A program made the translations under genes and the position numbers. Shown here in pieces: positions 3,785 to 27,617 of a stretch of DNA of 35,093 bases. Within the stretch, counting starts at the first letter, position 1. Every line of letters starts with the position of its first letter. The notes below the pieces were generated by a model, which worked only from the letters and a program-made list of their open reading frames with translations, did not search any database and was not told where the DNA came from. Source of the stretch: an uncultured Alphaproteobacteria bacterium (GTDB taxonomy: Bacteria; Pseudomonadota; Alphaproteobacteria; CAAGCB01; CAG-977); the NCBI GenBank assembly GCA_944392845.1, contig CALXYE010000148.1:1-35093 (forward strand), given 5' to 3'.

Positions 3785-3859
3785 AACGCTCCTCTTGACG
3801 CGGAAGCGTATTTTTCGGATGCTGAGCCCGACGGATCAAATAAATTTTTCGTGAAAACA

Positions 3860-6343
3860 ATGGTTGATAAAATAAAGATTCGCGGCGCAAGGGTGCATAA
3901 CCTGAAAAACATAGACGTTGACGTTCCTTTGAACCGCATCGTCGGGATTGCGGGCGTGTCGGGGTCGGGGAAGTCTTCTCTGGCTTTGGGAGTCCTTTAT
4001 GCCGAAGGGTCAAGGCGCTATTTGGATTCCCTTTCCGCCTATACGCGACGCCGTATGTCTTTTGCCGAAAAAGCTTCGGTAGACGAAGTCCTTTACGTTC
4101 CCGCCGCTTTGGCTTTGCGTCAGCGTCCCGCCGTTCCGGGCATTCGAAGCACGTTCGGTACGGGGACGGAGCTGCTGAACGGCCTCAGGCTGGCGTTTTC
4201 CAGGCTGGCAAGCCATCGTTGTCCGAACGGGCATTATTTGCCTCCGACGATTGATGTAGCCGCGGGAAAGGAATTGATTTGTCCCGAATGCGGCGCAAAA
4301 TTTTATGCGCCGTCCGCCGAAGAGCTGGCTTTTAACGGGCAGGGCGCCTGCCGTACCTGCGACGGAACGGGAATCGTCAGGACCGTGGATAAGGCGACGC
4401 TCGTCCCCGACGACTCCCTTTCCATTGACGAAGGCGCCGTCGCTCCGTGGAATTCGCTGATGTGGTCTTTGATGACGGACGTGTGCCGCGCGATGGGCGT
4501 TCGGACGGACGTTCCTTTCCGCGATTTGACCGATGCGGAAAAAGACATCGTTTATAACGGCCCTCCCGAAAAACGGCATATTCTGTATAAGGCCAAAAGT
4601 TCCAATCAGGCGGGCGAGCTTGATTTTACATATTACAATGCGACTTATACCGTCGAAAACGCTTTGGCAAAGGTCAAAGACGAACAAGGCATGAAGCGGG
4701 TGGAGAAATTCTTAAAGGAAGAAATCTGTCCCGATTGCGGCGGTTCCCGTCTTTCTGAAGCCGCCAGAATGCCGAAGGTGCGCGGCATGTCGCTTGACGA
4801 GGTTTGTCGAATGCCGCTTTCCGACCTTGTCGCATGGACGGACGGCATTCCTGAAACGCTCGGCGAAGAAATGCGTCCGATGGCGGAAAGCATTTGCGAA
4901 TCGTTTCGGGACACGGCAAAGCGTTTGATTGACCTCGGTTTGGGATATTTGTCTTTGGATCGCGCTTCGCAGACGCTTTCGACGGGAGAACGCCAGCGCA
5001 TGCAGCTGGCCAGAGCCGTACGCAATCGCACGACGGGCGTTCTGTACGTTCTGGACGAACCCTCCGTCGGTCTTCATCCCGCCAATATTGTCGGTTTGAA
5101 CGGCGTAATGCACGACCTGATCGCCGACGGAAATTCCGTCATTTTGGTTGATCATGACGTTCAGATCCTGTCCGAAGCTGATCGCGTGATCGAGCTGGGG
5201 CCGAATGCGGGCGTCGGGGGCGGCAGAATCATTGCCGAAGGGAGCATTGCAGAGATTGAGAAAAACAAGGATTCCGTCATCGGTCCCTTCCTGTCGGGAA
5301 AGGCGGAAACAAAGGCAAGGAGCAGGGCGGACGAAAGCCGCATGTTCGAATTCGGCGCCCTTCGCCTGTCCGCCGGAGCAATCCATACGGTCAAACCTTT
5401 GGAGGTTTCCGTTCCCAAAGGGCGGTTGACGGCGGTTACGGGCGTTTCGGGGTCGGGAAAGACGACGCTGATTTTGGAAAGCCTTGTCCCCGCGCTTGAC
5501 GCGAAAATTAACGGTAAAAAGCTGCCCGAACACGTTATTTCCGTTGAGGCCGAAGGCATTAAAAGGGTAAAGCTGATTGATGCGACGCCGATCGGGATCA
5601 ACGTGCGTTCTACCGTCGCGACGTATGCGAACGTGCATGACGAGTTGCGCAAAGTCTTTGCTAAAACGGAAGACGCCAAGCGTTTAGGATATAAGGCGGG
5701 CGATTTTTCCTATAATACGGGCAGGCTCCGCTGCCCCGCGTGCGACGGGACGGGGGTGATCAGCCTTGACGTTCAATTTTTGCCCGACGTTGAAATTCCG
5801 TGCCCCGAATGCCGCGGGTCAAGGTATGCCAAGGAAGCCGAAAGCATCAGGTTCGCAAACAAAAACGGAGAGTCTTTCTCGCTTCCCGAACTGATGGACG
5901 CGGATATCAATTCGGCGTTGAAGGCGTGCGAAGGTCTGACGCTCGTGTGCCGTCGTCTGAAAACGTTGCAGGAGTTGGGACTGGGGTATTTGACTTTGGG
6001 GGAGGAAACTCCGGGGCTGTCGGGCGGAGAGGCGCAACGCCTGAAACTGGCGGAAGAAACGGGGAGGGCGCAGTCGGATTCCGTTTTTGTTTTTGACGAA
6101 CCGACGATCGGCTTGCATCCTCAAGACGTTCAAACGCTCTTGAAAGTTTTTCAGGGGCTTGTCGAAAACGGGGCGACCGTCATCGTAATTGAGCACGACT
6201 TGGACTTAATTCGTAACGCCGATTATATCATAGACATGGGACCGGGAGGCGGCGCGTCGGGCGGCAGGATCGTCGCCGCAGGCACGCCCGAACGCATTGC
6301 CGCCGCCCCGAACAGCGTGACGGGACGCTTCCTTCGTCCGTGA
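3860..6343 (+). CDS. UvrA2-like excinuclease ATPase lacking the UvrB-binding domain
   Basis: A protein of about 827 residues with the complete double-ABC layout of UvrA. Walker A GVSGSGKSS (about 32-40) and the zinc sites CPECG and CRTCDGTG lie in the first half, with signature LSTGERQRMQLA and Walker B VLDEPSVGLHP. The second half has GVSGSGKTT, a CPAC...CPEC zinc module, LSGGEAQRLKLA and FDEPTIGLHP. Housekeeping UvrA is about 940 residues. Here the sequence runs from the RSTFGTGTE segment almost straight into the first zinc module, so the UvrB-binding domain is missing. That is characteristic of UvrA2/class II paralogues, which are linked to damage or drug tolerance rather than normal excision. 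ATG 3860 is preferred because family N-termini begin (M)(V)DKI.IRGA; GTG 3851 is in frame. No strong Shine-Dalgarno for either. Confidence 0.88.
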   Translation: MVDKIKIRGARVHNLKNIDVDVPLNRIVGIAGVSGSGKSSLALGVLYAEGSRRYLDSLSAYTRRRMSFAEKASVDEVLYVPAALALRQRPAVPGIRSTFGTGTELLNGLRLAFSRLASHRCPNGHYLPPTIDVAAGKELICPECGAKFYAPSAEELAFNGQGACRTCDGTGIVRTVDKATLVPDDSLSIDEGAVAPWNSLMWSLMTDVCRAMGVRTDVPFRDLTDAEKDIVYNGPPEKRHILYKAKSSNQAGELDFTYYNATYTVENALAKVKDEQGMKRVEKFLKEEICPDCGGSRLSEAARMPKVRGMSLDEVCRMPLSDLVAWTDGIPETLGEEMRPMAESICESFRDTAKRLIDLGLGYLSLDRASQTLSTGERQRMQLARAVRNRTTGVLYVLDEPSVGLHPANIVGLNGVMHDLIADGNSVILVDHDVQILSEADRVIELGPNAGVGGGRIIAEGSIAEIEKNKDSVIGPFLSGKAETKARSRADESRMFEFGALRLSAGAIHTVKPLEVSVPKGRLTAVTGVSGSGKTTLILESLVPALDAKINGKKLPEHVISVEAEGIKRVKLIDATPIGINVRSTVATYANVHDELRKVFAKTEDAKRLGYKAGDFSYNTGRLRCPACDGTGVISLDVQFLPDVEIPCPECRGSRYAKEAESIRFANKNGESFSLPELMDADINSALKACEGLTLVCRRLKTLQELGLGYLTLGEETPGLSGGEAQRLKLAEETGRAQSDSVFVFDEPTIGLHPQDVQTLLKVFQGLVENGATVIVIEHDLDLIRNADYIIDMGPGGGASGGRIVAAGTPERIAAAPNSVTGRFLRP

Positions 6344-6773: not shown

Positions 6774-7670
6774 TTACTTTAAAAATTCCTCTAAGACGCC
6801 TTTTTGAATCATATCAAGATTAATGATATAATCTGTTGTATTGAATGTGTCACGCAATGGGCGTTGAGTCGTTTTCCAACCATAACCATCTGTTACCCAA
6901 ATGAATTGATGGCCATCTCTTGTCCATTGGTGATAAATATCGGCATATTCACCGGCGGTTGATTTCAACTTAGAACCACCGCCACCATAAAAGTTTGTTT
7001 CAATCAAATATAGTTTCTTGGGCGTGTTGATAGCAAAATCTATTCTTTTTGAAGATTTCGTTACTGTAATATTTTTGCCCCATTTTGCCTTGATTTTATC
7101 TGCCGTCGCCTGGGCAATATATTCGTAACCGTTTCTCTCACAAATGTCTTTTACAAAGAATTCAACCAAGTTTTCCATAGAAGTTCCGCTACGATTTTTG
7201 CGACCATTTGAATCAAGACCAACTTCTACACCGATAAAATAATCGGGGATAGACTTAATACTGCGGTTTGAAATAAGTTTTAAGAATCCACTTTCTTTTA
7301 GGAACAGAACCCCGTCTTTTGCTGGCATTGGCTTTGAAAAATCAAATCTTCTAGCATCAAAGTTATTTGGAGTAACCAGTAAGCTGATTTTCTTTTCTCT
7401 TTCTGCTAATAATGCAGGAACAATTCCAATAATTTGCGGATAATCCGTTAATAAAGCTAAGGCTTCTTCCTCAATATTCTCTTTACCAACCAAAGTATTT
7501 AATAAATTTAATGAGCGTTCAACCTCGCGGTAATTATGAATTACCTTTTTCCAGTTAACAAAATAATCCCATGATTTGATTGTTTCTTTCAATGTGGCAA
7601 TCAAATATGAAAAAACTTCATCATCATTGTTGCAATTCAAAATATTTTTGAAAACTGGATTATTTTTCAT
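6774..7670 (-). CDS. dpnB: DpnII-type GATC restriction endonuclease
   Basis: A 298-residue homologue of R.DpnII/MboI, which cuts unmethylated GATC. The catalytic PD-(D/E)xK-like core is visible as KRIDFAI (D211) followed by LIETNFYGGGGSK (E224, with N instead of the usual K at the next position), the arrangement I associate with this family. Length agrees with R.DpnII (about 288). The ATG overlaps the stop of the upstream methylase gene (ATGA), and AAGGAG lies 8 bases before it, so translation is coupled. It is last in the operon, giving the two methylases a head start. Base composition is far more AT-rich than the core genes, which suggests transfer. GATC specificity is inferred from family resemblance of all three genes together. 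Confidence 0.9.
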   Translation of the reverse strand: MKNNPVFKNILNCNNDDEVFSYLIATLKETIKSWDYFVNWKKVIHNYREVERSLNLLNTLVGKENIEEEALALLTDYPQIIGIVPALLAEREKKISLLVTPNNFDARRFDFSKPMPAKDGVLFLKESGFLKLISNRSIKSIPDYFIGVEVGLDSNGRKNRSGTSMENLVEFFVKDICERNGYEYIAQATADKIKAKWGKNITVTKSSKRIDFAINTPKKLYLIETNFYGGGGSKLKSTAGEYADIYHQWTRDGHQFIWVTDGYGWKTTQRPLRDTFNTTDYIINLDMIQKGVLEEFLK

Positions 7671-8452
7671 TCTTTATTCTCCTTATGTTGATATGCATCA
7701 AAAATTCTTTTATCCGCTAGTACGATAAATTCCGGATTTTTTTCGATTCCGATAAATTGCCGGTCTAATTTCATAGCGGCCACTCCGGTTGTTCCACTTC
7801 CCATAAACGGATCCAAAATCAGATCATTTTCCTTTGTTGAAGCAAGAATAATCCGCTCCAACAACTCCAAAGGCTTTTGAGTCGGGTGTTTCCCAAATTG
7901 TTTTTCACTTGGCGTTGGTGTCCCAATAGACCAAACGCTCCTCATTTGTGCATGAGGTTTCTTGATAAAATCTTTCGGAAAATCCCCGTCTTTCATCGCA
8001 TCATAATTAAAATAGTGCCGCGACTTTTTATCTTTTCTAGCCCAAATCAAAGTTTCATGGCTTGCTGTAAAATAACGACAAGACATATTCGGGCTGGCAT
8101 TAGGCTTAAACCACGAAATATCATTTAAAATATGATAACCTAGTAACTGCATAGCAAAACCACATTGAAAAATGCTGTGGTAAGTTCCAGACACCCATAA
8201 CGTGCCGTTCGGCTTCAAAACACGCCTACAGGCTGATAACCATTTCTTATGAAATTTAAAATCTTCTTTTAAACCTTTACTTTCATCCCAATCACCTTTA
8301 TTGACGGAAACAACATGTCCGTTCTGACAGCTGATACCACCATTAGAAAGCATATAAGGAGGATCAGCAAAAATCATATCAAAAGTATTTTCAGGGAAAT
8401 CTTTTAATTTCTTAATGCAATCGGCACAATATAAATTATAAATCTCTTTCAT
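7667..8452 (-). CDS. dpnA: DpnA-like DNA adenine methyltransferase (second methylase of DpnII system)
   Basis: A 261-residue beta-class amino-methyltransferase: the catalytic motif FADPPY (28-33) comes first and the SAM-binding motif FMGSGTTG (216-223) comes near the C-terminus, with the target-recognition region between. In DpnII systems this protein methylates adenine in GATC and also acts on single-stranded DNA, protecting incoming plasmid DNA during transformation. The start is ATG at 8452, two bases after the upstream stop; a TTG at 8458 overlapping that stop (TTGA) is also possible. Middle gene of the three-gene operon, overlapping the endonuclease start by 4 bases. Confidence 0.9.
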   Translation of the reverse strand: MKEIYNLYCADCIKKLKDFPENTFDMIFADPPYMLSNGGISCQNGHVVSVNKGDWDESKGLKEDFKFHKKWLSACRRVLKPNGTLWVSGTYHSIFQCGFAMQLLGYHILNDISWFKPNASPNMSCRYFTASHETLIWARKDKKSRHYFNYDAMKDGDFPKDFIKKPHAQMRSVWSIGTPTPSEKQFGKHPTQKPLELLERIILASTKENDLILDPFMGSGTTGVAAMKLDRQFIGIEKNPEFIVLADKRIFDAYQHKENKE

Positions 8453-8454
8453 TC

Positions 8455-9390
8455 TCAATAGTTCGTAATTAAAAGTTCCCTTACGCCATCACGACCATTC
8501 GGATCGGCATTAATCATTCTTTTAGCCCAAATTCTATGAATCTTGTAGTCGCGATACAAACTATCAAAGAACATATCTTTAGGATTGTAATTAGTCGGAT
8601 CAGAATTGCTGAGCATCTGCAATGCCCCCATTTCATTAGCCTTAGCAAAAACATCTTTTAAACGTCTTTGTTCATCATCATCAAAATCGCCGACAGCATA
8701 AGAATTAAATGAACTAGCGTTAATCGGTCGATATGGAGGATCATAATAAATGAAAGTATCCGAAGTTACATAGTCCAATGCAGAAGCAAAATCAGTCTGC
8801 AAAATTGCTGCACATCGTAAAGCTTTTGAGACTTCCCTTAGATTGTTTTCATCCAAAATCCGCGGATTCTTATATTTTCCAACTGGAACATTAAACAATC
8901 CCTTTGAATTAACTCTAAATAAGCCATTAAAGCAAGTACGATTCAAACAAACCGTCAAAGCTGCGCGCCTGATAAAATCAGCTGTATATTTATTAGCATC
9001 TACATTTTTATCAAATTGATTATATTCATCGCGAATAGTATAATAAAAAGCGGCTTTATCCGAAGCATAGTTATAGGCTTGTTGCAAAACTGATAACTCA
9101 GATATCAAGTCTTCAACGTTATTTTTAGTTACGTTATAAAGTATAACCAATTCAGGATTAACATCAAAGAGATAAGCATCCTCAAAACTATAGTTATTTG
9201 CCAGTTCAAAAAAAATAGCCCCACCACCAACAAAAGGCTCAATATAACGTTTTATGGCACCTAATTTTAATTTTGTGGGTAAATTTCCTGTGATTTGCGG
9301 CAAAAGCATACCTTTACCACCGGCCCACTTTAAAATGGGCTTTGCATGAAACTTTAAATAGTCTTCATTTAAAATTAATGCATTATTCAT
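8455..9390 (-). CDS. dpnM: DpnM-like D12-class Dam methyltransferase
   Basis: A 311-residue alpha-class (D12) N6-adenine methyltransferase of the Dam/DpnM type, predicted to methylate GATC in double-stranded DNA and protect the host from the cognate nuclease. The N-terminal KWAGGKG (21-27) and EPFVGGGA (51-58) form the SAM pocket, and the catalytic YYDPPY ends at residue 220. It is first gene of the operon, directly behind an extended -10 promoter, with AGGA about 8 bases before the ATG. Slightly longer than DpnM (about 284). AT-rich like the rest of the operon. Dam alone would be an alternative name, but the two downstream partners make a restriction system far more likely. Confidence 0.92.
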   Translation of the reverse strand: MNNALILNEDYLKFHAKPILKWAGGKGMLLPQITGNLPTKLKLGAIKRYIEPFVGGGAIFFELANNYSFEDAYLFDVNPELVILYNVTKNNVEDLISELSVLQQAYNYASDKAAFYYTIRDEYNQFDKNVDANKYTADFIRRAALTVCLNRTCFNGLFRVNSKGLFNVPVGKYKNPRILDENNLREVSKALRCAAILQTDFASALDYVTSDTFIYYDPPYRPINASSFNSYAVGDFDDDEQRRLKDVFAKANEMGALQMLSNSDPTNYNPKDMFFDSLYRDYKIHRIWAKRMINADPNGRDGVRELLITNY

Positions 9391-21998: not shown

Positions 21999-22763
21999 TT
22001 ATTTTTGAGGAGTGCTTCCTTCCTGAGGAGCTGGTTTTGCCTTCCCGCCCTTTTCGGGTTTTATCGGTTTGCCTTTGCGCATGCGTTCGGCAGGCGCCGC
22101 GCAGGGATAATCATCAGGCATAAACCGGCGTCCGTCCCGCGCGTCGCGCATGCAGGGCGGCAGACCGTGCGGCGGCATCATTTCGGGATGGTGCATCGGC
22201 GGACGGCGGTGATGACGGAAAAAAGGAGGTTCGCGCCTTTCGGGGGGCGGCGGCGGAGCCATGCCCGCTTCGGGCGGCATCGGTGCCCGGGCATCCCTGC
22301 GGGGACGGCGATGTTTTCTGAAACGCGGCCCTTTTTCAAAAGATTCCGCAAATGCGGCGCGTTCTTCGGGCGTCATTTTGGAAATCATGTCCAGCATATT
22401 TTTTTGAACCGCATCGTCGATCATTTTGCGTACGGCGCTGGCTTCGTCCAAGGCTTTTTGCAAAGCCGCGGGATCGAAGGGATCTTTGCGCAAAGCTTCC
22501 GTGACGGCTTCTTTAGACGCTTTCATAGGCTTTCGCGCATCTTTCATAGCTTTTTTAAACGCGCCGAAAAAGGCTTTTTTATTTTCGTCGGCGCGCACTT
22601 CTCTGCCGTCGGGCGGCGGGAAGCCTTCCGGTCTGAACTTAAAGCGTTCCGCGGGTCCGGACGGGAAGGGCGGTTCAAAAACGGCGCGGGAAACCTCAAA
22701 GCCGATGAACAAAAAGTTCAACGCCAATGATACGCCGAGAACGATAAGGATTTTTTTATTCAT
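21999..22763 (-). CDS. Periplasmic heavy-metal sensor (CnrX/Metal_resist-like)
   Basis: A 254-residue protein with an N-terminal membrane anchor or signal (IVLGVSLALNFLFIGFEVS), then a helical region of Metal_resist/CpxP type (about 70-145: ALRKDPFDPAALQKALDEA, MTPEERAAFAE). The C-terminal 110 residues are rich in Pro, His, Met and Arg (HHRRPPMHHPEMM, PPHGLPPCM), a likely metal ligand tail. In CnrYXH-type systems such a protein senses metal in the periplasm and releases the sigma factor from its membrane anti-sigma factor. The ATG overlaps the previous stop (ATGA) and GGAG lies 8 bases before it. Last gene of the operon. Which metal is sensed is unknown; the copper pump about 2 kb away is suggestive. 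Confidence 0.7.
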   Translation of the reverse strand: MNKKILIVLGVSLALNFLFIGFEVSRAVFEPPFPSGPAERFKFRPEGFPPPDGREVRADENKKAFFGAFKKAMKDARKPMKASKEAVTEALRKDPFDPAALQKALDEASAVRKMIDDAVQKNMLDMISKMTPEERAAFAESFEKGPRFRKHRRPRRDARAPMPPEAGMAPPPPPERREPPFFRHHRRPPMHHPEMMPPHGLPPCMRDARDGRRFMPDDYPCAAPAERMRKGKPIKPEKGGKAKPAPQEGSTPQK

Positions 22764-23137
22764 TGGTATAACTCCGTTGCGTTCAAGGTTAAGTCAAACA
22801 TGTCGTTAAAATAGCTTGTCGTATTCGCATAGCTTTGCATGGCTTCGTGATAGCCGAAATAAAAACCGCAAAGCATCAGTAAAACGGAAAGCCAGGCGGA
22901 ATGCCTGAAAAAAAGAAAGAACAGGCGCGCGTTCCGCTCCGTTACGATTGTTTTCATCAAACGGGCGGTCAGCCCCGGATTAAAGGGCGCCTCAAAAGCG
23001 TCAAGGCGGTCGTCCAAAGCTTTTTCTTCTGCCAAAACGAGGGCGTAAGCGCCGCCGTAAGCGGGTTCCGCGGTTTTTAGAAACGGACGGGAACCGTATG
23101 TCTGAACTTTCTTTTTGAATTCTTGAAAATCCGTCAT
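22760..23137 (-). CDS. Membrane anti-sigma factor (probable)
   Basis: A 125-residue protein from ATG 23137 (AAAGGAG 5 bases upstream; ATG overlaps the sigma stop as ATGA). The N-terminal 80 residues are soluble and charged, followed by one membrane helix (HSAWLSVLLMLCGFYFGY, about 83-100) and a short periplasmic end. Size, topology and position directly after an ECF sigma gene fit an anti-sigma factor that holds the sigma at the membrane. No strong sequence family is recognisable, so the call rests on context. Confidence 0.65.
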   Translation of the reverse strand: MTDFQEFKKKVQTYGSRPFLKTAEPAYGGAYALVLAEEKALDDRLDAFEAPFNPGLTARLMKTIVTERNARLFFLFFRHSAWLSVLLMLCGFYFGYHEAMQSYANTTSYFNDMFDLTLNATELYQ

Positions 23138-23682
23138 GCCGTCTCCTTTCGTACCGAAAGCCTTTCCTTCAGGGTTTGGCGCGCCCTGAACAGCAGGGAT
23201 TCCAACGCTCCGACGGAAACCGACAGGATGTCGGCGGCTTCCTTTGCTTTCAAACCCTGATGATAACACAGGATCAGGGCTTCTTTTTGGCGCGCGGGTA
23301 ACGCGTTGATCGCTTCTTTGATCTCTTCCTCTTCCGCCTTTTGAAGCATGCTCTGTTCGGGCGACGGGGCGGTTGAGGCCGTTTCGGGAACGGTATTTTC
23401 CGTCGGCCGCGCGCGCCTGAGCGTGTCAATGTAGTGATTGTACAAAATACGGTACAGCCATGTTGACAGCTTGGCGTCGGGCGTCCATTTTTCCGCATGG
23501 CGCCAGACCTTGAGGAAAACTTCCTGCGCCATGTCTTCGGCCTCGGTTCTGTCGGACGTCAACCGCCATGCGCAGGCATAAATCTTTTGCCCGTAACGAT
23601 CCAGCAAGGCTTGAAAAGCTGTCGCGTCGCCGGCAGCGATTCTTTTCATCAAGGTTTCGTCAGTCAGTTCGGTCGGCTTCAT
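23134..23682 (-). CDS. ECF sigma factor
   Basis: A 182-residue sigma70-family factor of the ECF type. Region 2 (about 11-80) shows FQALLDRYGQKIYACAWRLT, AEDMAQEVFLKVW and LSTWLYRILYNHYID. Region 4 (about 122-172) shows INALPARQKEALILCYHQG and the helix-turn-helix AADILSVSVGALESLLFRARQTL. The linker is Pro/Thr-rich. It heads a three-gene minus-strand operon in which each stop overlaps the next start by four bases, so sigma, anti-sigma and sensor should be made in fixed proportion. The target promoters are unknown. A GGAAC motif 25-29 bases before the ATG is too close to be its own -35 unless the transcript is nearly leaderless. Confidence 0.9.
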   Translation of the reverse strand: MKPTELTDETLMKRIAAGDATAFQALLDRYGQKIYACAWRLTSDRTEAEDMAQEVFLKVWRHAEKWTPDAKLSTWLYRILYNHYIDTLRRARPTENTVPETASTAPSPEQSMLQKAEEEEIKEAINALPARQKEALILCYHQGLKAKEAADILSVSVGALESLLFRARQTLKERLSVRKETA

Positions 23683-23744
23683 TCGTCGTTCTTTCGCAAA
23701 CTCTACGTTCCTTATAACGAAGTTTGGCGGAAAAACATTCGGTA

Positions 23745-23782
23745 AAAAAGAAAAAAAATCTCCCCGTCGAAAAGGCGGGGAG
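23745..23782 (-). terminator. Intrinsic terminator of the amidohydrolase gene
   Basis: CTCCCCG, loop region CCTTTTCGA, CGGGGAG, then ATTTTTTTT on the minus strand, 14 bases after the gene stop. Confidence 0.85.
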
Positions 23783-23796
23783 GCAAGCCGTTGATT

Positions 23797-24684
23797 TCAT
23801 TCTCCTTTGGGAGCCAAAAACAGCTCGTAGGCATTTCGGTAGAACAGCATTTCGATGATGTCGTCCGCATCTTCTCCGAATTCTTCGGCGACGGCGGATT
23901 TGACTTCTCCGACCCGTTGGGCGTAATAGGCGGGATCGCCGAAGGGCCCCAGAGGAATGTCCGTTCCCCATAACAGATGGCTTAAAACGTCTTCGTCCGC
24001 CATGCGCAGGATGTTGACGAGGGTTTCCGGCGAAATCCACGAAACGTCGGCGTAAAGGTTTGCCGATCCCGAATGCAGGGCGGCGGTCAGAATGCCCAGC
24101 GTGAAATAGTGGTTTTCGTCGCTGCCCATGCCCATATGCGCCAAAATGACGGGGACATCGGGGAATTTTTGCGCCGTTTCGTAAATATAAACGGGGCTGG
24201 ACCAGTTGTCCTGAGAATGGAACAGAACGGGCAATCCGTATTCCTGCGCGACGGCCAAATAAGGTTCGTATTGCGGATCGTTCGCGTCCAGCATCAGCGT
24301 GTTGGGGTGCAGCTTGATGCCGTAGATTTCGTCGCCGCGTTCGTCAATCAGACGAGCCAGCTTGTCCGCGTTGCCGTATCCGGGCTGCCCGACGATCATC
24401 GTTTTGAATTTCGGGTTTTGGGCGCAGATATCCAACATTTGACGGTTCGTTTCGAATTCGTCCTGACAGGGCGAACCGTCGGGGTTCGTATCAATGCCGC
24501 TCATGTTGGACACCATGACGGCGACGACTTCGTTTTCTTCCGTTTCTCCGCACACGGGAACCTCAAAGGGCGTATCGAACGTTTCCTGAAGCGTTTCCTC
24601 GGTAAAATCGACGTTGTCCGCGCTCCAATGCCCGATATGGGCGTGTGCTTCTATGATCTTTCCGTACAGTTCTTCGTCCGCCAT
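23797..24684 (-). CDS. Amidohydrolase-family TIM-barrel metal-dependent hydrolase
   Basis: A 295-residue enzyme of the amidohydrolase 2 type. Metal-site motifs appear in order: EAHAHIG (His14, His16), GIKLHP (about 122-127), LFHSQD, ILAHMGMG and the C-terminal LLWGTDIPLG with the catalytic Asp. Such proteins hydrolyse or decarboxylate small carboxylic acids, but the substrate cannot be read here. It is cytoplasmic, with no signal peptide. A near-perfect Shine-Dalgarno AAGGAGG stands 6 bases before ATG 24684 and directly behind a hairpin-forming leader. It has its own promoter and terminator, so it is a single-gene unit whose expression may be set by the leader. Confidence 0.82.
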   Translation of the reverse strand: MADEELYGKIIEAHAHIGHWSADNVDFTEETLQETFDTPFEVPVCGETEENEVVAVMVSNMSGIDTNPDGSPCQDEFETNRQMLDICAQNPKFKTMIVGQPGYGNADKLARLIDERGDEIYGIKLHPNTLMLDANDPQYEPYLAVAQEYGLPVLFHSQDNWSSPVYIYETAQKFPDVPVILAHMGMGSDENHYFTLGILTAALHSGSANLYADVSWISPETLVNILRMADEDVLSHLLWGTDIPLGPFGDPAYYAQRVGEVKSAVAEEFGEDADDIIEMLFYRNAYELFLAPKGE

Positions 24685-24740
24685 GGGATGCCTCCTTGTT
24701 TCCCTTTAAGAATCAAAGGGAAAGAGCTTCCCTTTGAACG
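24685..24740 (-). promoter_or_regulatory. Leader with two mutually exclusive hairpins before the Shine-Dalgarno
   Basis: In transcript order: CAAAGGGAA (24736-24728), TTTCCCTTTG (24723-24714), AAAGGGAAA (24707-24699), then AAGGAGG (24697-24691). The middle segment can pair with the first (9 bp, 5-base loop) or with the third (9 bp, 7-base loop), but not both. The third segment abuts the Shine-Dalgarno. The predicted transcript start falls just before the first segment, so the leader is almost exactly this device. Regulation is inferred. Confidence 0.5.
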
Positions 24741-24746
24741 GTTCTC

Positions 24747-24775
24747 GTTTTAACGCGCTTCATATAAGGGGTCAA
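24747..24775 (-). promoter_or_regulatory. Sigma70-type promoter of the amidohydrolase gene
   Basis: Minus strand TTGACC (24775-24770), 17-base spacer, TAAAAC (24752-24747). Transcription would start near 24740. Confidence 0.5.
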
Positions 24776-24796: not shown

Positions 24797-25519
24797 TCAT
24801 AAAATTTTTCCGAGGAACTCCTTCGCCCTTTGCGTTTTCGGCGCGCTGAAAAATTCGGCGGGCGTCGCGTCCTCAATGACGTTTCCTCCGTCCATGAAGA
24901 CAATTCGGTCGGCGACCTCGCGGGCGAAATTCATTTCGTGAGTCACGATCATCATCGTCATGCCGTTATCTGCCAGTTCGCGAATGACGTTTAAGACTTC
25001 CTTGACCATTTCGGGATCAAGCGCGCTGGTCGGTTCGTCAAACAGCATCGCCTTCGGCGACATGCACAGGGCGCGCGCGATGGCGACCCGCTGCTTTTGG
25101 CCGCCCGAAAGGCTGTGCGGATAGGCGGCGGCCTTTTCTTTCAATCCGACGCGTTCCAACAGCGTCAACGCTTTTTCTTCGGCGTTTTCCGGGCTCATGA
25201 TTCCCGATAAAACGGGGGCAAGCGTCAGGTTTTCCAAAACGGTCTTGTTGGAAAACAGGTTGAAATGCTGGAATACCATGCCGAGCTTGCGGCGCAGGGC
25301 GGGCAAATCGGCGTTTTTCGCCGTGATCTCTTCGCCGTCAACGAAAATTCTGCCCTCCGTCGGTTCGGACAGGCGGTTGACGCAATGCAAAAGCGTGCTT
25401 TTTCCCGACCCCGACGGCCCGAGGATGCAAACGGCTTCTTTCGGACGGACGTGCAGGTTGACGCCCTTTAAAACGTCGTTGTTTCCGAAACGCTTACGCA
25501 GGTTTTCAATACGGATCAT
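24797..25519 (-). CDS. Polar amino-acid ABC transporter, ATP-binding protein
   Basis: A 240-residue ATPase of the GlnQ/HisP type that powers amino-acid import. Walker [11 protein letters not shown]-loop VFQHFNLF, signature [15 protein letters not shown], Walker [13 protein letters not shown] and the switch His in VTHEM are all intact. Start ATG 25519 is preferred over 25531: it overlaps the permease stop (ATGA) and has GGAG 6 bases before it. It follows the permease gene on the minus strand as an operon. Substrate unknown. Confidence 0.92.
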
Positions 25520-26193
25520 CGGCGGCTCCATTTTCTTTCGACGGCTTGCAGGATTTGGGACAGGGCAACGGTCAGAATCAGATAAATTACCGCGACCGTG
25601 AACAGCGGAACGACGGCGTCGTATGTTTTCGAACGCAGAATGTCGCCCGCGCGCATCAGGTCAATGCCGCCGATAAAGCCGACGACGGAGGTTTCCTTGA
25701 TCAGGACGATGAATTCGTTTCCCAAGGCCGGCAAAATCTTTTTGAACGCCTGCGGCAGGATGATGTGCCGCATGGCGGCGGCTTTCGTCATGCCGAGCGA
25801 CAATGCCGCCTGCATCTGTCCTTCGGCGACGGCGTTGATGCCCGCGCGGACGATTTCGGAAACGTAGGCGGCGGAATTAATGCCGAATGCGATGATCGCG
25901 ACCGTCCATTTATCAACGGCGACGGAGGCGAAAACAACGAAGTTAATGATGAACAGCTGGACTAAAACGGGCGTTCCGCGCACGCATTCGATATAAAGAA
26001 AGGCGGGGATGCGCCACGCCCTTTTTTCGGAAGAGCGCATGACGGCCAGCCCGACGCCCAAAAACGCGCCGAGAAGAACGGCGCCGAAGGTGATCAGGAG
26101 CGTGTTTCCCAATCCGTTTATCAGCAGGGACAAACCGTTCGGCTGTCCCGTTCCCAACGGTTCGAACAAGCATCGGATAATTCTGTCCTGCAC
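25516..26193 (-). CDS. Polar amino-acid ABC transporter, permease protein
   Basis: A 225-residue membrane permease of the HisM/GlnP type from GTG 26193, which has AAGGAG 7 bases upstream; the longer open frame to 26403 adds an unconvincing basic N-terminus. About five membrane helices, starting [20 protein letters not shown]. The coupling motif [37 protein letters not shown] (split: [14 protein letters not shown], then AALSLGM) is typical of the family. First gene of a two-gene operon with the ATPase. No periplasmic binding-protein gene adjoins it. Confidence 0.88.
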
Positions 26194-26267
26194 GGGCGTT
26201 CTCCTTGAAAAAGAAAAAGGCGAATGAAACCGAGTTATAGCAGGGAGGATGAAAAAAATACAGCCTT

Positions 26268-27617
26268 TTAGCGCAACTTTGCCTGCCGTTCGATCTCCAG
26301 AGCTTCGGCGGCGTCCTTTTTGTCGCGTTCCGACCCGATACGGCGGGTGCGCCTGATTTCCGAAAAATAGCTTTTGCGTATTCCGAGCGCGTATGACAGC
26401 CATATTCCCGCGAACAAAATGCCGAACCAGGGCAGGATTTCTTCAATCGGCAAGGACGCTTCGCTTCGCATCCGTTCAAGCCCGATGATCATCAGCGAGG
26501 CGATGACGCCGCCCAGCGGATTGATAATGCCTTCCAGTAAGGTTCGGATCTTTCCGCGGACGCTTGTGGCGAAGATGTTGAAAGAAACCTGAATCGAATT
26601 GGATTGCACCGACATCCCGATCAGGGTCTGCATAAACATTGTTGCGGCGACGGGCATCAGTCCGGGGGACAGAATCATAACGGCAAAGCAAACGATCTGA
26701 GACAAAGGCAAAACCGCGAAGCCGTTTCTGACCCCCGTTATTTTCAACAGCTTCGCGCCGACAAACGTCTGAATCAGCAAGGCGGCGACGTTCGCCGCCG
26801 TCGTATAGGCACCCGTGAACGAAGCGATTTCTTCCGCGGAAGAGTAAACCCTGTCCAGCATTTTGCCGTAACAAAAATCGATCAGGGTGCAGACCAGCCA
26901 AAACGACATGAACACGACGCCCATGTGCCGCGCAAAGGAAGACGCTTTAAAGTACTTCAGCCCAATGGCAAAGTTTTTTACCAAATCATTTTCGTTTCGC
27001 ACGGGCGTTTCGCCCTTTTCGTTCGGCGTCGTCAGGCGTTTGAGCGCGAAAGTAACGGCGAAACCTGCGAAAATGCTCAAGGCCCATGTGCGAATCAGCA
27101 TTTCCGCGGGCAAAAGGTAGGGCAGGCGGTTGGCCGTCGCGCCGCCCGCAATGCTGCCGATCAGGGAAGCCGTCGCCAAGACGGGATACACGTTCGCGGC
27201 GCTTTTGGGAGAAAAGGCTTTGTTGATCATGTTCCAAGTCTGAATGATATAGACGGACGGTACGGCAATGATCAAAACGGCCAGAAAAATCAGCAAAAAG
27301 CGGTACGTTCCTTCCGAAAACGACGCGGCATGCGCCAGAACCGCAAGGTCGGTTTCCAAAATAAAAATAAACGACAGAAAGGAAAATCGGACAAGCTTTT
27401 CGTTACTGAACGCGTCGGCAAAGAACATCAGGCAAACGTTCAGCGCGAAGCCGCCCAGCGCCGAGAACAGAAAAAATCGGGACAGGCTTTCCGATCCGAT
27501 TTCTTTAATCAAAAGGGAATATACTCCCGACCAGCCCGCGCCGTGCCCGAAATTAATCAGGAACAGCAACAGCCAGAACAGGACGGTCAAAAAGCGTATC
27601 CTTTTTTCTTCGCGCAT
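26268..27617 (-). CDS. Multi-pass transporter, ATP/ADP-translocase-like (TLC/NTT) or MFS
   Basis: A 449-residue membrane protein with about 12 predicted helices and a basic C-terminal tail. The stretch IIQTWNMINKAFSPKSAANVYPVLATASLIGSIAGG (read as IQTWNMINKAFSPKSA and ASLIGSIAGG) resembles the nucleotide-carrier (Npt/TLC) signature 'WNLVNDIFTPREAKRLFPLIGAGASLG'. Those carriers exchange nucleotides in obligate intracellular bacteria, but homologues of unknown substrate exist elsewhere. It starts 3 bases after the stop of the GH13 gene and is surely co-transcribed with it, which raises the alternative of a saccharide transporter. Nothing here decides between these. Confidence 0.65.
   Translation of the reverse strand: MREEKRIRFLTVLFWLLLFLINFGHGAGWSGVYSLLIKEIGSESLSRFFLFSALGGFALNVCLMFFADAFSNEKLVRFSFLSFIFILETDLAVLAHAASFSEGTYRFLLIFLAVLIIAVPSVYIIQTWNMINKAFSPKSAANVYPVLATASLIGSIAGGATANRLPYLLPAEMLIRTWALSIFAGFAVTFALKRLTTPNEKGETPVRNENDLVKNFAIGLKYFKASSFARHMGVVFMSFWLVCTLIDFCYGKMLDRVYSSAEEIASFTGAYTTAANVAALLIQTFVGAKLLKITGVRNGFAVLPLSQIVCFAVMILSPGLMPVAATMFMQTLIGMSVQSNSIQVSFNIFATSVRGKIRTLLEGIINPLGGVIASLMIIGLERMRSEASLPIEEILPWFGILFAGIWLSYALGIRKSYFSEIRRTRRIGSERDKKDAAEALEIERQAKLR

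Follow-up and report, generated by a model that had tools for sequence, protein, structure and literature searches.

Two competing stems in the leader of an amidohydrolase gene

Does the short leader in front of an amidohydrolase gene act as a switch, or is it a peculiarity of one lineage? In the stretch of DNA analysed here (the window, 35,093 nucleotides) the leader is a minus-strand sequence between the stop codon of an ABC ATPase gene (24797) and the ATG of the amidohydrolase gene (24684). The window belongs to a 177-contig draft assembly of a gut alphaproteobacterium, the one genome of its genus in the comparison, and the relatives with which it was compared belong to the same order. The reading that we favour, tentatively, is that the leader of this amidohydrolase-ECF sigma unit holds a lineage-specific cluster of inverted repeats that is at most a fixed brake on translation.

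Read along the minus strand, the region consists of TTGACC, 17 nt, TAAAAC, then TCAAAGGGAA-GCTCT-TTCCCTTTGA-TTCT-TAAAGGGAAA, followed by AAGGAGG and the ATG, which gives a leader of 56-58 nt. It contains three inverted segments, AAAGGGAA / TTCCCTTT / AAAGGGAA. Segment A (TCAAAGGGAA, 24728-24737) is the 5' arm of the first hairpin, P1, and also the left half of a DNA palindrome; segment B (TTTCCCTTTGA, 24713-24723) is an arm common to P1 and the second hairpin, P2; segment C (TAAAGGGAAA, 24699-24708) is the 3' arm of P2. Since both outer segments are complementary to the middle one, P1 and P2 are mutually exclusive. We found that P1 joins TCAAAGGGAA (24737-24728) to TTCCCTTTGA (24722-24713) by 10 Watson-Crick pairs around a 5-nt loop, GCUCU (24723-24727), and that P2 joins TTTCCCTTTG (24723-24714) to TAAAGGGAAA (24708-24699) by 9 Watson-Crick pairs and one G-U. 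The Shine-Dalgarno sequence AAGGAGG (24691-24697) begins one base past P2 and stands 6 nt before the ATG.

The original prediction had described three alternating segments, two exclusive hairpins and an adjacent Shine-Dalgarno sequence, and all of these were confirmed; they belong to the minus strand, a point that it had left unstated. The plus strand of the interval was also considered as the folding unit and was set aside, since its fold is unremarkable and it is the wrong strand for the gene.

The leader promoter is conserved with the amidohydrolase-ECF sigma unit

A -35 element, TTGACC (24770-24775), and a -10 element, TAAAAC or alternatively TTAAAA (24747-24752), are separated by a 17-nt spacer on the minus strand. 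Using the alignment of nine leaders and the upstream sequences of the orthologues, we found that CTTGA and TAA are invariant at equal spacing in the eight orthologues aligned with the window, and because of this the promoter appears credible, although it went undetected in a generic sigma-70 scan of the leader. Transcription is predicted to start at 24738-24743, about 5-9 nt past the -10 element, and the first segment begins about 5 nt or less past this point. The earlier proposal that the transcript begins right before the segments is thus supported by the conserved promoter sequence, the start itself being a prediction.

The amidohydrolase (23797-24684, minus strand) is a protein of 295 aa of the Amidohydro_2 family (Pfam PF04909, 80.5 bits). 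Orthologues that are 58-72% identical were found in all 11 of the other genomes of the order that were searched; a search for a solved structure among its sequence relatives gave no match at E<=0.01. The next gene of the conserved unit encodes an ECF sigma factor (23134-23682, minus strand; Pfam Sigma70_r2 and r4_2), and it follows the amidohydrolase orthologue in relatives too. Besides the amidohydrolase and the ECF sigma factor, the whole unit (21999-24684) includes a small protein without a match, possibly an anti-sigma factor, and a Metal_resist/Spy-like periplasmic protein; the unit was seen in the g3 relative L004 too.

The gene upstream of the leader differs. In the window it encodes an amino-acid ABC transporter ATPase. 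In L004 it is anmK (PF03702), and in most other relatives the upstream sequence likewise terminates in an anmK-like protein; in the source genome anmK is on a different contig from the amidohydrolase. The promoter is therefore kept together with the amidohydrolase-ECF sigma unit, as it is conserved despite different upstream genes, anmK in g3 and the ABC ATPase here. The amino-acid ABC transporter itself is apparently split, with a permease and the ATPase in the window (24797-26403) and a substrate-binding-like protein behind anmK on the other contig of the same genome (L036, 1506-2255).

A different inverted repeat, of the type CCCCTT-N6-AAGGGG, lies between the -35 and -10 elements of the same promoter in L004, L005, L006, L008 and L010. 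This CCCT/AGGG-type repeat occurs in five g3 leaders out of the six aligned; L009 has a broken copy, and g2 has none. An order-wide search with it as a regulon motif gave no regulon. The g3 repeat could be an operator.

Predicted folding closes the ribosome site by default

Folding was calculated with a nearest-neighbour model of the RNA without ribosomes or proteins, and the energies below are thermodynamic predictions. In the growing transcript, P1 is the predicted minimum-energy structure at about 29 to 50 nt, and from about 53 nt the predicted minimum-energy structure has P2. For the full leader at 37 C, P2 is predicted at 99.8% and P1 at 0.14%, the closed state being favoured by about 4 kcal/mol. 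In the predicted P2 fold the Shine-Dalgarno sequence is paired with the loop of P1 (GCUCU), and GGGA with UCCC directly before the ATG. The predicted P1 fold leaves the Shine-Dalgarno sequence free. The predicted cost of opening the region from the Shine-Dalgarno sequence to the ATG is about 10.6 kcal/mol in the P2 fold versus 4.4 in the P1 fold. These predictions are in line with the link between hairpins and ribosome site that had been proposed. In principle the model thus provides for both an open and a closed state, without a working balance between them.

Warming is predicted to have little effect on the choice of fold. P2 is predicted to exceed 99% across 20 to 50 C, and the predicted opening cost declines smoothly over the same range, from 11.1 to 6.8 kcal/mol. 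The outcome differed for a transcript that reads through from the ABC genes, in which P1 is predicted at 0.67-0.73 and P2 at 0.27-0.33, with the ribosome site closed by other sequence.

Taken as a fixed brake, the leader would work as follows. P1 would form first on a transcript from the leader's own promoter; once segment C and the Shine-Dalgarno sequence had been made, P2 would displace P1 by strand exchange. The loop of P1, released by this takeover, would pair with the Shine-Dalgarno sequence, and GGGA would pair with UCCC before the ATG. The likely outcome, we infer, would be fixed, default-low translation, the site being open at most briefly while the RNA is nascent. Nothing in the analysis indicates that a ligand, a protein or a small RNA drives a shift between P1 and P2.

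The stems exceed chance, the occlusion does not

When the whole 35-kb window was shuffled with its dinucleotides preserved, one shuffle in 100 contained a triple of segments with Watson-Crick pairs only and stems of 10 and 8 bp. Shuffling the 58-nt leader 20,000 times gave none, and the real window has no other triple of such strength. When G-U pairs were allowed, 9/9 triples were common (29 of 40 shuffled windows), and therefore the striking feature is the perfection of the stems. Composition fails to explain the triple; a local duplication or a template switch would explain it, and these are events that shuffles do not model.

The fold of the leader has a z-score of -2.64 (3 of 200 shuffles were equally good). 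Against shuffles of the upstream leader, its minimum energy gave P=0.037 and the occlusion of the ribosome site gave 11.3 versus 8.75 +/- 2.7 kcal/mol (P=0.15). This suggests that the predicted occlusion is not unusual and lies within the ordinary range. A second module joining P2 to a Shine-Dalgarno sequence was not found in the source genome.

Orthologous leaders do not share the structure

The order-wide search covered 11 other genomes, none of them of the same genus, of which 10 upstream regions were read; a scan of contigs for close relatives outside the order yielded no more than four Alphaproteobacteria MAGs. Eight orthologous leaders were aligned with that of the window. Most of the relatives' leaders are T-rich, lack the segments and are shorter; the window leader exceeds most of those in g3 by about 15-20 nt. 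The three-segment pairing was kept in none of the orthologous leaders examined at the level of the order.

We found that RNAalifold gave 0 consensus pairs on the nine leaders. For P1, only two rows of the alignment have letters on both sides. For P2, 65.5% of the cells pair, versus 62.6% when shuffled and 70.5% when the partner was slid by one column; the P1 and P2 pair counts in this alignment are thus no better than those of shuffled or slid partners. In some g3 leaders the Shine-Dalgarno sequence AAAGGA can enter a small U-rich hairpin, and occlusion in g3 leaders is generally not above that of shuffles, L009 (P=0.037) being the sole value below 0.05.

In this alignment the structure lacks conservation at the family level. 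The original prediction had named segments that vary in relatives without keeping their pairing as a result that would tell against it, and this is what the genomes of the order contain. Its absence from the orthologous leaders is what one would expect of a fixed feature of one lineage, and not of a class of sensors. With the double hairpin missing from all relatives examined, a local quirk or a simple brake on expression is therefore likelier than a new riboswitch.

Comparison with known leader systems

Above its curated thresholds, Rfam 15 identified only a tRNA in the whole window, and at a lax threshold the leader gave matches at E 2.9-4.6, far under the gathering scores. The statement that no known RNA class could be recognised thus held, as no match rose above the level of chance. 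A conserved aptamer with covariation, as a riboswitch class would have, was not seen in the alignment of the window leader with eight others, which are from the order and none of which is congeneric. Read by eye, the leader has neither an ATG nor a GTG that could open a leader peptide; its one TTG (about 24716) is without a Shine-Dalgarno sequence. No terminator-like site with a U tract was found in the leader on the minus strand. The literature search found no direct precedent for the arrangement.

In translational riboswitches such as preQ1-I and SAM-II, a short leader hides or frees the Shine-Dalgarno sequence by alternative pairing. The window leader shares its shortness and the alternative pairing at the Shine-Dalgarno sequence with them, but not an aptamer core, a match in Rfam, conservation in relatives or a balance of states. 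Translation attenuators of the ermC type have alternating complementary segments before the gene, as the window leader does, but they also encode a leader peptide that has a ribosome site to itself, which the window leader lacks. A study of type I toxin messengers reports metastable co-transcriptional hairpins, in which an early transient hairpin gives way to a later fold with an effect on translation (PMC6733600). The replacement of an early hairpin by a later fold is shared, here as a prediction, whereas the window gene is an ordinary hydrolase with no known antisense RNA or processing. Template switching is known to create perfect hairpins (PMC8794818), and the window leader likewise has a perfect inverted repeat that appears in one lineage, although close relatives are lacking and the mutational event cannot be reconstructed.

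The structural description in the original prediction was right, and its regulatory reading, as a riboswitch or regulated attenuator, exceeds the evidence: the leader is too short to accommodate an aptamer besides its bare stems, and it has no match in Rfam, no leader peptide and no balance of states.

Weighing the explanations

What speaks for a fixed brake is that the stems are genuine and stronger than composition would give by chance, that P2 is predicted to take over from P1 at about 53 nt, to dominate and to make the site costlier to open, and that the promoter apt to give such a transcript appears conserved despite a differing upstream gene. Against it stand the ordinary predicted occlusion and the shift of the preferred fold in the modelled read-through transcript. 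A brake without a selective trace could equally be neutral. Two rivals are serious. It is possible, if doubtful, that the repeats are a neutral by-product of local template switching (quasipalindrome correction) or of a short inverted duplication and have no regulatory role; perfect stems that are absent from all orthologous leaders examined, the extra length relative to g3, the documented source of perfect hairpins (PMC8794818) and an occlusion inside the shuffled range all agree with this. However, the repeat sits exactly between the start site and the Shine-Dalgarno sequence, the P1 loop is complementary to the latter, and the genus offers no ancestral sequence that could show such an event. 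Somewhat less probable is a DNA operator, in which a dimeric repressor would bind the near-perfect palindrome TCAAAGGGAAGCTCTTTCCCTTTGA, about 3-5 bp past the predicted start, with segment C as an extra half-site. Its 10-bp half-sites, 5-bp centre and classic operator position are as one would expect, and most aligned g3 leaders have an inverted repeat of their own in the same promoter. Yet a genome search that allowed 3 mismatches in the 20 specified bases gave just one further, chance-like match, 2 mismatches in 16 gave eight scattered sites versus three in the control, and no regulator was found among the neighbouring and window proteins scanned, save the ECF sigma factor. The palindrome is absent from relatives, the g3 repeat is without a regulon, and a search of the genome and the order for further copies at other promoters likewise revealed no regulon.

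The other explanations are all improbable. An early stem-loop that shields the messenger from decay is suggested by the closeness of P1 to the predicted 5' end (about 5 nt or less), and it is quite unlikely given that P2 is predicted to displace P1 in the full-length fold and that relatives do without such a hairpin. Slightly less credible would be a genus-specific minimal kinetic switch of about 56 nt, in which P1 would open the site on nascent RNA only and P2 would then close it, limiting hydrolase-ECF sigma output and possibly responding to a factor that captures segment C. Mutually exclusive stems coupled to the Shine-Dalgarno sequence might suggest a riboswitch, attenuator or trans-responsive switch, with a ligand, protein or small RNA moving P2 to P1, but this is very improbable: the stems are bare of an aptamer-like conserved core, Rfam has no match, relatives do not conserve them, the states are predicted to lie about 4 kcal/mol apart, and genome complementarity to the region of segment C and the Shine-Dalgarno sequence amounts to one match with 3 mismatches. 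Least probable is an RNA thermometer whose ribosome site opens on warming. The closed Shine-Dalgarno sequence is predicted to loosen gradually with temperature, but it does so like any stem while P2 persists, and the temperature is steady in rumen and horse faeces, the sources of the related genomes.

A fixed brake, if real, would show how little sequence suffices for a default-closed leader and how such an element can come up in a single lineage at a conserved promoter. As matters stand, the case mainly warns against taking mutually exclusive hairpins in one genome as evidence of a riboswitch.

Elsewhere in the window, a DpnII-type restriction endonuclease and two DNA methyltransferases (Pfam DpnII, N6_N4_Mtase and MethyltransfD12) are encoded at 6774-9390, and a UvrA-like ABC ATPase of 830 aa that matches the UvrA DNA-binding domain at 3851-6343. 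A membrane protein of 449 aa (26268-27617) weakly resembles the TLC ATP/ADP transporter (20.8 bits, slightly below the cut-off) in this alphaproteobacterium of 1.9 Mb.
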